34,013 nucleotides of DNA from Candidatus Melainabacteria bacterium (lineage in GTDB: Bacteria > Cyanobacteriota > Vampirovibrionia > Obscuribacterales > JAKAZS01): positions 1 to 34,013 of the forward strand of contig DAHXLC010000216.1 of assembly GCA_027371815.1 (NCBI GenBank). The letters run 5' to 3'. Made by a program: the position numbers and the translations under genes. The notes below the pieces were generated by a model. It searched no databases. It was not told the origin of the DNA and worked only from the letters and a program-made list of their open reading frames with translations. Numbering within the stretch: position 1 is the stretch's first letter; the number at the start of each line of letters is the position of its first letter. Positions 1,430 to 7,619 of the stretch are shown piece by piece.

Positions 1430-2710
1430 TTAGCTAGTGGACAAATTATAAATATTGCTTAAAGCCTTATAGCAAACTTCAAGCGTTTTTTCAATATGTT
1501 CTAACTTATGAGCCTTGGATATACAAGCAGCATCAACAGCTGATGGCGGTAAATAAATTCCCCTATCGAGTAAATAATGAAAAAACTGGGCAAATTTTAT
1601 GGTATCAATCATTAAAGAATCAGCATAATTTAAAACCGGCTTAGCGCTAAAAACAATTGAAAACATTGAGCCAACACGTTGAATATGTATAGGATAATTT
1701 TTACTTTGACAAAATTGCGTTAAATTACTAGCAAAAATATGCGTCATATCTTCAAGGTATTCATAAACGCCGTCTTCACTTAAAGCATTCAAAACTGCTT
1801 TTCCACAAGCCATACTAAGAGGATTTCCGGAAAAAGTCCCAGCTTGGTAGACTAATCCAAGCGGCATTAAATAATCCATGATTTGGGCTTTGCCACCATA
1901 GGCACCAATAGGCATGCCACCGCCAAGAATTTTACCTAAACAAGTTAAATCTGGTTTAACTCCCGATAATGATTGAGATCCACCTAAGGCAACTCGAAAA
2001 CCTGTTAATACTTCATCAAAAATAAGAATTGTCTTTTGTTCAATACAAATTTTGCTTAACTTATGCAAGAATTCATGATTAGCTTCAATTACGCTCATTG
2101 ATCCAGCTACGGGTTCAATGATTACACAGGCAATTTTATTAGCGTGTTTTTTAAATAATAATTCAACACTGTCAATATCATTATATTTAGCCATAACCGT
2201 ATTAATTTTGACATTATCCGGAATACCAGTTGAAGACTGATGGTTTTCACTAACTAAAGTAATGTCTAGATGCCCATGATAACCACCTTCAAACATCATA
2301 ACATAATCACGTTTAGTATATCCTCTAGCTAATCTAATAGCACTCATACAGCTTTCGGTACCAGAATTAACGAAACGGATTTTTTCTAGGCTAGGCATAA
2401 TTTTATTCAATTTAAAAGCTAATTCATATTCTAATTCATGAGGCGCTCCCGTTACCATAACTTTATCCGTAATATCTTTTAGCGCATTCATTATCTTTTG
2501 GGGTCGATGGCCTAAAATTAGTGGACCCCAAGCACCCACATAATCAATATATTCATTGTCATCAACATCTTTTATAATAGCACCAAGACCTGATTTCATA
2601 AAAATAGCCTTACCACCTACTTCATGAAAAGAGCGAAATGGACTATTAACTCCACCAGGAATTAATTTATTGGTTAATTGATAAAATTTATCCGATATTA
2701 CATGTTTCAT
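1430..2710 (-). CDS. hemL: glutamate-1-semialdehyde 2,1-aminomutase
   Basis: 426 aa; GGVNSPFRSF, GAWGPLILGH, FVNSGTESCMSAIRLAR, IFDEVLTGFR, CLGKILGGGMPIGAYGG are HemL signature segments. Confidence 0.95.
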   Translation of the reverse strand: MKHVISDKFYQLTNKLIPGGVNSPFRSFHEVGGKAIFMKSGLGAIIKDVDDNEYIDYVGAWGPLILGHRPQKIMNALKDITDKVMVTGAPHELEYELAFKLNKIMPSLEKIRFVNSGTESCMSAIRLARGYTKRDYVMMFEGGYHGHLDITLVSENHQSSTGIPDNVKINTVMAKYNDIDSVELLFKKHANKIACVIIEPVAGSMSVIEANHEFLHKLSKICIEQKTILIFDEVLTGFRVALGGSQSLSGVKPDLTCLGKILGGGMPIGAYGGKAQIMDYLMPLGLVYQAGTFSGNPLSMACGKAVLNALSEDGVYEYLEDMTHIFASNLTQFCQSKNYPIHIQRVGSMFSIVFSAKPVLNYADSLMIDTIKFAQFFHYLLDRGIYLPPSAVDAACISKAHKLEHIEKTLEVCYKALSNIYNLSTS

Positions 2711-3618
2711 TTTTGGCGTTTTTTTATCCAGTCAGCAATTTTTTGCCATAATGTTAATGGCTCAGGACTTTGACTAGCTTCAAGAACTAGGCCAGGAATA
2801 CTAGTTTGGGTCTGGCGTTGATACCCTTTAATTTCCTTAAATATCTCTTTTAATTCCAGCATAACGACTTGAGCTGTTGCAGGCCGATCATCAATATTGT
2901 AATTTGTTAAGCGAAAAATAAGATCATTTAAATGTAAATTTATAGTTTTATTATCTTTTAAGGGATTACTTTGAGTTAGTGGTTTTGGTTTTATACCAGT
3001 TAATAAATGACCCAAGGTTACACCTAGAGCATAAAGATCCGATCGCGGTTCAGGCTTGCCATAGTATTGTTCTGGTGGGGAATAACCAGAAGTAACGACT
3101 TTTGTAGCAGCCTGATTAAAGTTAACAATTCTGGCTATGCCAAAATCAATAAATACGACTCGGCCTTCTGGGGTCAAGATTAAATTACTGGGTTTTAAAT
3201 CACGATATATAATTGCCGGAACCTGTAAATGAATGTAACTAAGCACCTGACAACATTGAATGCCAATTTCAACCACAGCTTCACTGTCAAAAGCGCCAAA
3301 ATTCTTTAAAACAACACTTAAGTCTTTACCCTTAATATAATCCATTACTAAAAAATATTTACCATCGCTACTAGCATGGTAGTCTAAAATTGGTACAATT
3401 CCAGGGTGATTAAGTTTACTTAAAATTTTAGCTTCGCGTTTAAATAGTCTAATAGCTTCACTATTCTCATATGGGTCATTAGATTTTGACATAAGTTGCT
3501 TAACTACAACTTCACGGCTGAAATCAATAGCATAAGCCAGATAGACTATCCCCATTCCACCACTACCGATGGGTTTTAAGAATTTATAGTTTTGAAACCA
3601 ATTTTTTACATTATCCAA
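2707..3618 (-). CDS. serine/threonine protein kinase
   Basis: 303 aa; GSGGMGIVYLAY (G-loop), VVKQL, YRDLKPSNLIL, FIDFGIAR, APE-like SPPEQYYGKPEPRSDLYALG. Stop overlaps hemL start (ATGA). Confidence 0.92.
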   Translation of the reverse strand: MDNVKNWFQNYKFLKPIGSGGMGIVYLAYAIDFSREVVVKQLMSKSNDPYENSEAIRLFKREAKILSKLNHPGIVPILDYHASSDGKYFLVMDYIKGKDLSVVLKNFGAFDSEAVVEIGIQCCQVLSYIHLQVPAIIYRDLKPSNLILTPEGRVVFIDFGIARIVNFNQAATKVVTSGYSPPEQYYGKPEPRSDLYALGVTLGHLLTGIKPKPLTQSNPLKDNKTINLHLNDLIFRLTNYNIDDRPATAQVVMLELKEIFKEIKGYQRQTQTSIPGLVLEASQSPEPLTLWQKIADWIKKRQK

Positions 3619-3623
3619 AAATA

Positions 3624-3697
3624 CACCCTCGGAGGGATTCGAACCCCCGACACCCGCCTTAGGACGGCGGTGTTCTATCCAGCTGAACTACGAGGGC
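3624..3697 (-). tRNA. tRNA-Arg (anticodon CCT)
   Basis: Reverse strand GCCCTCG-TA-GTTC..GAAC-A-CCGCC GTCCTAA GGCGG-..-GGGGG TTCGAAT CCCTC-CGAGGGT-G folds as a cloverleaf; anticodon CCT; CCA not encoded; G1:U72 wobble. Confidence 0.93.
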
Positions 3698-3757
3698 AAT
3701 TATCATTTTTTTATTCTTACTATCATACCAACATATTTTACAAGATTTTTCCTGCGA

Positions 3758-5890
3758 TTAAACTTTATATCCAGCTAATTTTTTTAAAAATATAAGAATT
3801 GTAAAAAAACCAGCTTCATAAAATAATAACATAAATATTAATATGCCTAAAATGGTTGGCCATTGGATTAAATCAAGCCAATTACTTAAGAAATCAAATT
3901 CAATTAAATGAGCCCCAGGGTTTAAAAAACAAGCCATCATATAACCATTAGCCTTAAATAAGGGACTGTCAATACTATCAATTTTAACTTTCCAATGATT
4001 AGCATAACTTTGATTAAAAATTAAAAAACAAGGATTAATACAATCGGTTGACAAAGCAATATGACCTGGTTGCAAAGTCAAAGTAACAACTTTTGCCTTA
4101 ACTGGTTTGGCTTTAGCAAAAAAATTAGGCTGGTTAGCATTGGTTTTAAAATTGGCTAAATAACTATATAAATCAGGCTGAGTATTTTCGTTAGTTAATA
4201 ACTGACGCACCCGATTAATTTGTTGATACTTATTAAGATAATCAATTTCGGGTATGCTGATAATATCGTTAACGTCATTAGAAAAAAAATCCTTAACAAT
4301 AAATTGATTATTAATAAATTTAATCTGATTACTTAAATAACTCATTGGCTTTAATTCTAATGGTAAAACATACTTTTGACCCAAGGACGAGAAATTAGCT
4401 AATCTAAAGGGTTTATCAAAATTACGCTCAGTATTATAAATATATTTTGAATTAGTTAAATAGCAAAAGCGCTTTAATTTATTGATATTAATGCTTATAT
4501 TATTATTTAAAAAAGTCAAATTCGGATCAAAACATTCTTCAAATAGTTTATGGAGAAATGGCTGCCCAATACCCCAATAACTTATAGTTACGGGATTTAA
4601 ATTATGCAAATTAGTAAATGCGATATTATCATGATCAATACAAGCCAAATTAGCTTGATCTTTCATGCCGACAAATAAGGTTCGCTCTGTATATAAATTT
4701 TCTGGTAATAAACTAGGTACAGCATTATGATTAATTGCTGGAAATTTAAAATTTAAACATAAATTGGGAAATAATACTGGCAATAACACCAGGCTCAAAT
4801 AAATAAGCTTATTTTTATTTATTTTAAATTGAGGATAAATTAATATATAAGTAAATAAAATACCTAACTGAATTAAATAAGCTTTAACTGTAAAAGTATG
4901 AATCAAGGCAGTGTTAAAACATAATCCTAAAGTATTATAACCAAATAAAAATATTACGGTAGCTAAAGCATATTTATTAGCATGAGTATTCTGCTTATGG
5001 GTAAGACTGGTAAATCCTAAACCTATGACCAAAGACACTGGCATCAAACCAAGAATATAAAAGAAATTCAAATTATGCCTATTAGCTATATAGCTTAAAT
5101 AACTTAAACTATGGATATTATATAAATTATAAAACAGATCATTTAATAGGCCTAAAATAAAAAACAAAACTATTAAGCTAAGACAATGACGAAGATATTT
5201 AAAATTCTTGGTAAAACAACCTAAAATAAAAATGAACACGCAAATAGGATTATATTGAATAAAAATTTTTATATTATTTAAAGTCCCAATTACTGGTAAT
5301 ATAAAATCATTGGTTTGAAATAAACTACTTATTTGAAAGTTAAATTGAATTACCCTCAATAATCTTTCAAATAAGTAAATATATGATGGATAAGCAATTA
5401 AAGCTCCGGCCATAATTGACAGCCAATAATAAATTAGTTCTTTTTTTTGGGGCTTATAATATGGATTTGGTATTAAAATAATTCCCAAAATTAAAACCCT
5501 AAATTGTAAGGGTAAACCACAAAACATTCCCAGAGCAATTGTTAGAGAAATCAAACAAAACACCCAATATTTATGACCATTACCTTGATTTAAACGAATT
5601 TTTAAAATTCCCATTACAACTAACCAGACAAAACTTTCAAGAGAATTTAAACTAGCTAAATTAACTATCGGATAAAAAGTTATGGTTAAAATTGAAGCTG
5701 ATAATATTGCCCTATTTACAGAAGTCAGCAATAATTTATAGAAATAGGTACTTGCTAAAAAAATCAAAATCAAATGAATGCATCGTAAGATTCTTAGTGC
5801 CATTTCAGAATTCATAAAACACGTCAAATAGTTAGGCAGATAAAATATGCCCGATCCAGGAATAGCCAATTCATTGATTCCACAGGCCAC
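3758..5890 (-). CDS. multi-TM membrane protein, YfhO-like; true N-terminus probably lies upstream (see findings)
   Basis: 710 aa, many TM helices; C-terminal YANHWKVKIDSIDSPLFKANGYMMACFLNPGAHLIEFDF resembles the YfhO C-terminal domain; in-frame upstream sequence encodes NLVPAWNPYVACGIN, a YfhO/GT-C style WNP motif. Confidence 0.7.
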   Translation of the reverse strand: MACGINELAIPGSGIFYLPNYLTCFMNSEMALRILRCIHLILIFLASTYFYKLLLTSVNRAILSASILTITFYPIVNLASLNSLESFVWLVVMGILKIRLNQGNGHKYWVFCLISLTIALGMFCGLPLQFRVLILGIILIPNPYYKPQKKELIYYWLSIMAGALIAYPSYIYLFERLLRVIQFNFQISSLFQTNDFILPVIGTLNNIKIFIQYNPICVFIFILGCFTKNFKYLRHCLSLIVLFFILGLLNDLFYNLYNIHSLSYLSYIANRHNLNFFYILGLMPVSLVIGLGFTSLTHKQNTHANKYALATVIFLFGYNTLGLCFNTALIHTFTVKAYLIQLGILFTYILIYPQFKINKNKLIYLSLVLLPVLFPNLCLNFKFPAINHNAVPSLLPENLYTERTLFVGMKDQANLACIDHDNIAFTNLHNLNPVTISYWGIGQPFLHKLFEECFDPNLTFLNNNISININKLKRFCYLTNSKYIYNTERNFDKPFRLANFSSLGQKYVLPLELKPMSYLSNQIKFINNQFIVKDFFSNDVNDIISIPEIDYLNKYQQINRVRQLLTNENTQPDLYSYLANFKTNANQPNFFAKAKPVKAKVVTLTLQPGHIALSTDCINPCFLIFNQSYANHWKVKIDSIDSPLFKANGYMMACFLNPGAHLIEFDFLSNWLDLIQWPTILGILIFMLLFYEAGFFTILIFLKKLAGYKV

Positions 5891-6059
5891 ATAAGGATTC
5901 CATGCAGGGACAAGATTATGAATAATACAGTTATAGACGTATTGTAAATTCGGTATTAAATAAATAAAATCACTGAAATTTGTTTTATAGGCAAAGAAAA
6001 GATTTAAGCTGATTAAAATTAGGCAAGCTTGAAAAAAAAAACCGTCATAAATTATTTAA

Positions 6060-7619
6060 CTAAAACTCGCTGTTAGGTGAGCGGCTCTCATGACTTACAT
6101 ATAATGGTTTGATTGAAGTTTGCGATATATTCATGGTTAAATCAACTAAATTTGTACCAATTAAACAAAGCATAACTATACAAAATCCCAAAGCTGTAAT
6201 CGGACCAGTTTGCGATACCATTTGTGACTGTCTTTTATCAGGTAAAGCTTTTACAACATCACTAGGTTCACTGACTAACATTTTAATAACAACTCTGGTG
6301 TAATAGTAAATTGCGGGAATGGATGTTAATAAAGCAATCACTACTAAAAAGGAACCAATATGAGCACTGTAATTGAAGAAAATAGGAATAGTACCCATAT
6401 TAAATCCAGCTGAAAAGACAAAGAATTTAGCTAAGAATCCAGCGGGCGGAATGGGTAAACCAGCCAGATTAATCAGGCATAAGGATAAGCCAAGCGCTAA
6501 AATTGGCCGTTTTCGGATAAGACCAGCATAATCATCAATATTATCGGAATTAGTCTCATTCGTAAATAAAATTGCTGCAGCAAAAGCCCCTAAATTCATA
6601 AAACCATAAACAATCAAGTAAAACATTGCCGCACTAACGCCAACACTACTACCTTCTACGATACCAATAAGCATATAGCCAATGTGAGCTATTGAAGAAT
6701 AAGCCAGCATTCTTTTGAAAGATTTTTGACTTAAGGCAATTAAATTACCTACAACCATTGATAAAACCGCTAAAATACTTAAAATTAAAGTCCAGTAAAA
6801 AATGGCCTTGCCAAACACAACTACTAATAATCTTAATGCGATGGCAAAAGCTCCTAGTTTGGAGCCAATTGATAAAAATGCCGTTACTGGTGTTGGAGCC
6901 CCTTCAAACACATCAGGTGTCCACATGTGAAATGGGACAATCGATAATTTAAAGCCCACGGCACTAATTAATAAAACTAAAATTAATACGCTAATTAGTG
7001 AATGCGGAGCCATGTTTAAAGTTACAAACTGTTCCTGAATTACGCTAAACATGGTCGATCCGGTCAGGCCATAAATAAACGAAAAACCATAAAGCAAAGT
7101 GGAAGTTACGGCTGCAGTAGAAATTAAATACTTTAGGCAGGCTTCTTGACTTTTTACATCTTGTTTTTCAAATCCAGCTAATATGACACAGGCAATACTT
7201 AATGTTTCTAAAGCAACAAAAAGCAACACTAATTCACTGGAGCCAGCTAAAAGCATTACGGACACAATCGCTGTTAATAATATAGTGTAAAATTCACCGG
7301 CATTATCTTTTAAATGCTGTTCGTAACCCATTGTCATGAGAATAACAATAAAGCCAATTATATTAATAAAAATGCCAAATATAACGGTAAGTTTATCAAT
7401 TGTGAAAACACCGTTAAATAAACTTACCGTTCCAATATTTAACTGGAAGGCCAACATCATACTTGAAACAAAAGTTGCCAAAAGTCCAAACCAAGGAGTT
7501 AAAAATTTAAGCTTAGGGACAAATAAATTCCAGACGCTAGAAATTAAAATTGCAAGAACAATCACAAATTCAGGCAATAGTCCCAAAAAGGCATTTGTAT
7601 ATAAGTTAATATCATTCAT
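6060..7619 (-). CDS. nuoN: NADH-quinone oxidoreductase subunit N
   Basis: 519 aa; ALETLSIACVILAGF, FKLSIVPFHMWTPDVFEGAPTPVTAFLSIGSKLGAFA, FKRMLAYSSIAHIGYMLIG, NLAGLPIPPAGFLAKFFVF. Confidence 0.95.
   Translation of the reverse strand: MNDINLYTNAFLGLLPEFVIVLAILISSVWNLFVPKLKFLTPWFGLLATFVSSMMLAFQLNIGTVSLFNGVFTIDKLTVIFGIFINIIGFIVILMTMGYEQHLKDNAGEFYTILLTAIVSVMLLAGSSELVLLFVALETLSIACVILAGFEKQDVKSQEACLKYLISTAAVTSTLLYGFSFIYGLTGSTMFSVIQEQFVTLNMAPHSLISVLILVLLISAVGFKLSIVPFHMWTPDVFEGAPTPVTAFLSIGSKLGAFAIALRLLVVVFGKAIFYWTLILSILAVLSMVVGNLIALSQKSFKRMLAYSSIAHIGYMLIGIVEGSSVGVSAAMFYLIVYGFMNLGAFAAAILFTNETNSDNIDDYAGLIRKRPILALGLSLCLINLAGLPIPPAGFLAKFFVFSAGFNMGTIPIFFNYSAHIGSFLVVIALLTSIPAIYYYTRVVIKMLVSEPSDVVKALPDKRQSQMVSQTGPITALGFCIVMLCLIGTNLVDLTMNISQTSIKPLYVSHESRSPNSEF

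Follow-up and report, generated by a model that had tools for sequence, protein, structure and literature searches.

In the window examined here, a 34,013-nucleotide contig (C210) of a 334-contig, 2.77 Mb assembly (G000), the gene for a YfhO-like membrane protein follows nuoN on the minus strand and is out of frame with the ATG at its head. We favour, with moderate confidence, a vertically inherited start that depends on slippage of the RNA polymerase at a tract of ten T just inside that ATG. From the geometry of the start region, its conservation in a sister species, the coding constraint on the segment upstream of the annotated start and the avoidance of runs of sense T in this genome, we infer that slippage occurs at T10, that the RNA polymerase, and not the ribosome, is what slips, and that the ATG serves as the start codon.

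The long open frame of the YfhO-like gene (3758..6055, minus strand) is closed upstream by a TAA at 6058–6056. It begins ATA ATT TAT GAC GGT TTT TTT TTT CAA and stays open to 3758, and only ATA, ATT, TAT, GAC and GGT precede the all-T codons. An earlier note, made from the letters of the window, had stated that this frame contains no ATG, GTG or TTG before a stop, and we confirmed this from the TAA down to the GTG at 5890–5888, where the ORF caller starts a 710-aa ORF. The first canonical start of the frame lies at codon 55, as compared to 32 codons or fewer from the frame opening in all of the 54 other long ORFs sampled. The probable initiation codon is the ATG at 6048–6046. The order on the minus strand is GAG TTT TAG (the nuoN stop, 6062–6060), TTAAATAATTT and then this ATG, followed after 4 nt by the candidate slippage tract (6041–6032), a run of exactly ten T. 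Read without slippage, the ATG frame (ATG ACG GTT TTT TTT TTC AAG CTT GCC TAA) gives the 9-residue peptide MTVFFFKLA and stops at the TAA at 6021–6019. One extra U in the mRNA would link the ATG to the 760-codon frame and yield a protein of 763 aa. The earlier note, which had described the gene as one T short of a complete N-terminus, was thus right on this point, and had placed the ATG, the T10 and both frames correctly to the base. As for other explanations of the site, a nuoN readthrough fusion is ruled out by stops in the relevant frames, no hairpin of an intrinsic terminator was found at the T run, and the RNA-family matches within the window consist of a tRNA only.

The T10 junction is covered by two sequences, the window and contig JAKAZS010000083.1 of a same-genus MAG (G002, isolate ZJ1.bin59), which represents a sister species. 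They share about 94% nucleotide identity over the contig (~6% divergence) and 94% amino acid identity, and are identical from the nuoN stop through T10. Past the tract, the zero frame reads MTVFFFKLA-stop in the window and MTVFFFRLA-stop in G002, so that the ATG, the tract length and the stop of the unslipped frame are all kept. The canonical codons of the long frame are not: at the annotated GTG, G002 has ATA, and where G002 has its own first in-frame canonical codon, a GTG 16 codons further upstream, the window has GTC. The first such codons common to both species are a TTG and an ATG at codons 78 and 82, past the conserved Asp and the WNPY motif. On the best reading of these sequences, the T10 arrangement predates the split of the two species of the genus and has been vertically inherited. 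In a third species (G001, 47% identity) the contig ends at residue 160, without the junction, and a search of genome contigs for further junction sequences gave only the two known relatives. Both sister assemblies break within the YfhO-like gene, G002 (contig C134) after residue 355 and G001 (contig C81) before residue 160.

The segment between T10 and the annotated start (6031–5891) contains the first transmembrane helix, a near-invariant Asp and the WNPY motif, and evolves as coding sequence. Between the window and G002, the 47 codons before the GTG carry 3, 2 and 10 substitutions at codon positions 1, 2 and 3, respectively (10/15 at the third position, P=0.0085), with a dN of 0.075, a dS of 0.309 and a dN/dS of 0.24. 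The rest of the gene has a dN of 0.020 and a dS of 0.179, and for the part of the gene that is shared, dN/dS comes to ~0.14. When residues are counted from the first Phe, which makes the GTG residue 51, L14, Y18, D24, P30, P45, W47, N48, P49 and Y50 of the upstream segment are near-invariant among sister-family relatives of 18–20% identity. These relatives are single ORFs with the same N-terminus, the homology pattern described by Baranov 2005, as compared to the 763 and 9 aa of the slipped and unslipped products here. They start roughly 50–70 residues before WNPYV and the region is kept, contrary to the pattern that the earlier note had named as refuting its reading, homologues that begin at WNPYV. 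In one of them (L092), an ATG start stands directly before the first transmembrane helix, matching the proposed arrangement. A start at the GTG would lose a transmembrane helix, the near-invariant Asp and the WNPY motif, which the GTG itself directly follows. Given that the upstream segment is under coding constraint and conserved in relatives, the annotated GTG start is very probably wrong.

The gene immediately upstream, nuoN (6060..7619, minus strand), encodes complex I subunit N (PF00361, E=1.8e-72; TIGR01770 above its cut-off), with 11 nt between its TAG stop and the ATG. For the window NuoN, the NCBIfam model with the top score, though below the cut-off of that model, is NF002701 (NAD(P)H-quinone oxidoreductase subunit N). 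This is a cyanobacterial-type model, a hint that the organism may be a relative of cyanobacteria that does not photosynthesize. Among 20 fetched relatives, the upstream gene is nuoN in all 12 readable cases (L091–L094, L096–L099, L102, L103, L105 and L110). The YfhO-like genes of the relatives start with ATG, GTG or TTG, commonly 12 nt or less from the nuoN stop, and most of them show no clear Shine-Dalgarno sequence. This sister-family layout suggests that translation of a glycosyltransferase-like gene is coupled to that of a complex I subunit. The ATG at 6048–6046 also has no Shine-Dalgarno sequence, which counts against the slippage-dependent start; other genes of the same genome have similar Shine-Dalgarno-less start contexts of the form ...AATTTATG. 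On the same strand, the YfhO-like gene is followed (1430–3698) by a tRNA-Arg (CCT), then a Ser/Thr-kinase-like ORF and a class III aminotransferase.

The name YfhO-like, proposed in the earlier note, holds through the relatives but not through the window protein itself, which has no Pfam or NCBIfam match and does not reach the PF09586 (YfhO) gathering score of 28.5 bits. Two relatives pass this threshold (L092, 29.7; L096, 31.7) and two come close without reaching it (L093, 27.5; L101, 22.2). The predicted structure of the window protein is too weak to be of much use (pLDDT 49), and its top PDB match, the oligosaccharyltransferase chain 6ezn_F, is not significant (E=0.11). The near-invariant D24 is a candidate for the GT-C-like acidic residue of the first outer loop. 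Like Bacillus subtilis YfhO and PF09586 proteins, the protein has many predicted helices and a large loop before the last helix, and is linked to them by weak homology via its relatives. B. subtilis YfhO is a proposed lipoteichoic acid glycosyltransferase of the GT-C fold (PMC5836110). Unlike it, the window protein lacks a direct Pfam match and is encoded behind nuoN rather than a csbB-type gene. On these comparisons the product is probably a YfhO-like, GT-C-type glycosyltransferase.

To place the T10 tract in its genomic context, we counted homopolymer runs in 259 ORFs (298 kb of coding sequence) within 341 kb of G000 stretches (the window and L155–L174), with synonymous-codon shuffles as the expectation. 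Sense T runs are depleted with increasing length, with observed/expected ratios of 0.76, 0.68 and 0.34 for lengths 7, 8 and 9, and none of 10 or more as compared to 3.0 expected. The corresponding ratios for sense A runs are 1.10, 1.17, 0.76 and 1.08; the A10 count is inflated, as most of the sampled stretches were chosen for their 10-base tracts, a choice that should matter little at lengths 7–9. The whole 2.77 Mb assembly holds 30 A/T runs of at least 10 nt; 11 of them fall within ORFs of at least 150 aa, and in each of these the sense strand carries the A. A T10 in the sense direction at the start of a gene is therefore rare in this genome. Since replication slippage is blind to the strand, the asymmetry between T and A points to RNA. 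The heptamers separate the processes further, since slippage by the ribosome should make a slippery heptamer scarce in genes: U_UUU_UUC is not avoided (8 observed, 8.3 expected), whereas A_AAA_AAG is strongly avoided (2 observed, 16.3 expected) and A_AAA_AAA is not, so that the sensitivity to the T run looks transcriptional. The depletion of T runs is strongest in one codon phase, and codon-pair bias may contribute part of it. E. coli RNA polymerase slips on poly(T) from 7 T upwards and less on poly(A) (PMC6260861), and the depletion of T runs of at least 7, but not of A runs, in this genome follows the same preference.

These observations suggest the following course of expression. Ribosomes finishing nuoN would re-initiate at the ATG 11 nt downstream, and on faithful U10 transcripts would make the 9-residue peptide only. 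The RNA polymerase would at times slip on the T10 tract, and transcripts with a net +1 change (U11, but also U8 or U14) would bring the ATG into register with the 760-codon frame and give the full 763-aa YfhO-like, probably GT-C-type, glycosyltransferase. Two further signs of a slippage-dependent gene given by Baranov 2005 are present: T10 at 6041–6032 is an A or T run no shorter than 9 that sits where two frames join, and the genes of this organism show signs of selection against runs of this kind, with T runs of at least 7 depleted and A runs not. Slippage frequencies published for comparable tracts are 15–55% (PMC4256274), which we estimate would be enough for a working gene. That the arrangement is a selected throttle at codons 3–6 of a gene coupled to nuoN, in which the T10 length is kept so as to limit the membrane glycosyltransferase to a constant, low share of the expression of nuoN, or to make it depend on the UTP level or the polymerase state, seems to us rather unlikely.

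The main rival to polymerase slippage, itself unlikely, is an in-frame rare start, ATT (6052–6050) or ATA (6055–6053), used by re-initiation after nuoN, with T10 as ordinary coding sequence and the ATG present by chance. Both codons are conserved in frame in both species, and T10 would be in frame from either, which would explain its constant length. Moreover, relatives often use a weak GTG or TTG near the nuoN stop, so that ATT or ATA could be the remnant of a weak start that the ancestor had. However, no Shine-Dalgarno sequence was found for such a start, the out-of-frame ATG, 1 nt past the ATT codon, should compete with it, and none of the 54 other sampled long ORFs is without a canonical start near its frame opening. 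The infC gene, whose start codon in E. coli is AUU, appears to begin with TTG in this genome.

There is a slim chance that the same 763-aa protein is made from faithful mRNA by ribosomal −1 frameshifting at U_UUU_UUC in GUU UUU UUU UUC. This heptamer, of the pattern X_XXY_YYZ, lies in the right frame in both species. On the other hand, we detected no downstream stimulatory fold (z = +1.38) and saw no Shine-Dalgarno-like sequence beside the site, and the genome, which avoids A_AAA_AAG, tolerates this heptamer. Given that the depletion is specific to sense T, that U_UUU_UUC is not avoided and that no RNA structure follows the site, slippage of the polymerase is favoured over that of the ribosome.

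The earlier note had left slippage, phase variation and assembly error side by side. The first gained indirect support from the depletion of sense T runs, and the other two did not fare well. Phase variation by replication slippage, with T10 off and T11 on and both assembled genomes caught in the off state, is very unlikely. A homopolymer just inside the gene for a probable surface-glycan enzyme is typical of a contingency locus, but T10 is present in both species at ~6% divergence, with no variation of the tract between these relatives, and A tracts of at least 10 are tolerated in coding genes, which argues that replication slippage is not strongly selected against. Long tracts also seldom differ by an indel between these two genomes. 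Of the 30 runs of G000, 15 have an orthologue of 10 nt or more in G002, and 12 of the 15 are identical in length, in a comparison that sees only runs still at least 10 long in both genomes. Two of the three length differences (L066 and L081) are edge substitutions as judged by eye, leaving a true indel in 1/15. L066, with A10 in one of the sisters and A11 in the other, was rejected as a frameshift on account of a compensating substitution, and L085 (dnaJ-like, with a 10-base tract) was rejected as a second homopolymer-split gene, since it reads in frame with its A10 and the gene after it is a separate one. As most orthologous tracts keep their length, the constancy of T10 is in itself no proof of selection.

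The same comparison bears on an assembly error, in which the true tract would be T11 in both genomes and the ATG a normal start. Both are draft MAGs and the G002 contig has a k-mer coverage of just 1.9; however, two independent identical errors would be needed, and the separately assembled sister shows the same T10, ATG and stop, with 14/15 tracts free of indels. Since independent assemblies agree on long tracts, a sporadic error at T10 is unlikely, and we regard an error common to both as highly improbable. The 710-aa ORF of the ORF caller speaks for a shortened protein that begins at GTG 5890, or for a pseudogene, but either is barely credible: G002 has ATA in place of the GTG, the upstream segment is under coding constraint, dN/dS is about 0.14 in the shared part of the gene, and the protein would lack the conserved Asp and WNPY.

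Slippage-dependent expression of the kind we favour has precedents. The Shigella genes mxiE and spa13 rely on transcriptional slippage at T/U runs, at 20–30% and 25–55%, respectively (PMC1088944, PMC5009743, PMC4256274). In these genes, as has been proven for them and is proposed here, an extra, nontemplated U within the run connects a short frame upstream with the functional one. The spa13 tract comes after 58 codons, well inside the gene, unlike the window tract, which begins 4 nt after the ATG and leaves an unslipped product of 9 residues. In Citrobacter rodentium tssM1, slippage of about 20% at an A11 run (PMC4256274) restores the full length from an interrupted gene, as it would here; unlike the window gene, tssM1 has an A run, late in the gene, and makes two protein lengths. 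For genes of Blochmannia and Buchnera, homopolymer frameshifts are reported to persist from species to species without decaying and to be rescued by slippage (PMC3017870, citing Tamas 2008 and Wernegreen 2010), much as the frameshift at T10 is conserved between species. Those are reduced, highly AT-rich genomes of insect symbionts with many long A tracts, unlike the T tract of the window, whose genome measures about 2.8 Mb and avoids runs of sense T. Slippage-dependent starts are thus already known from mxiE, tssM1 and Blochmannia, and among these the position in the window is unusual: as the tract begins so close to the start codon, the choice would be between the full protein and nothing.

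If polymerase slippage at T10 is correct, a gene which the usual ORF callers cut short, or would take to be broken, is expressed in full length through slippage. Its host, an uncultured bacterium, is no insect symbiont of extreme reduction. With the tract nearly on the start codon, slippage would act as an expression valve, not as a source of two protein forms. The asymmetry between T and A runs provides a simple genome-wide test of polymerase slippage for uncultured organisms, one that can help to tell it from replication slippage. One 2.3 kb contig of the assembly (L055, G000:C84) carries T19, T11 and T12 runs (580–598 and 1137–1163), unlike the rest of the genome, and is possibly a contaminant or a plasmid piece.
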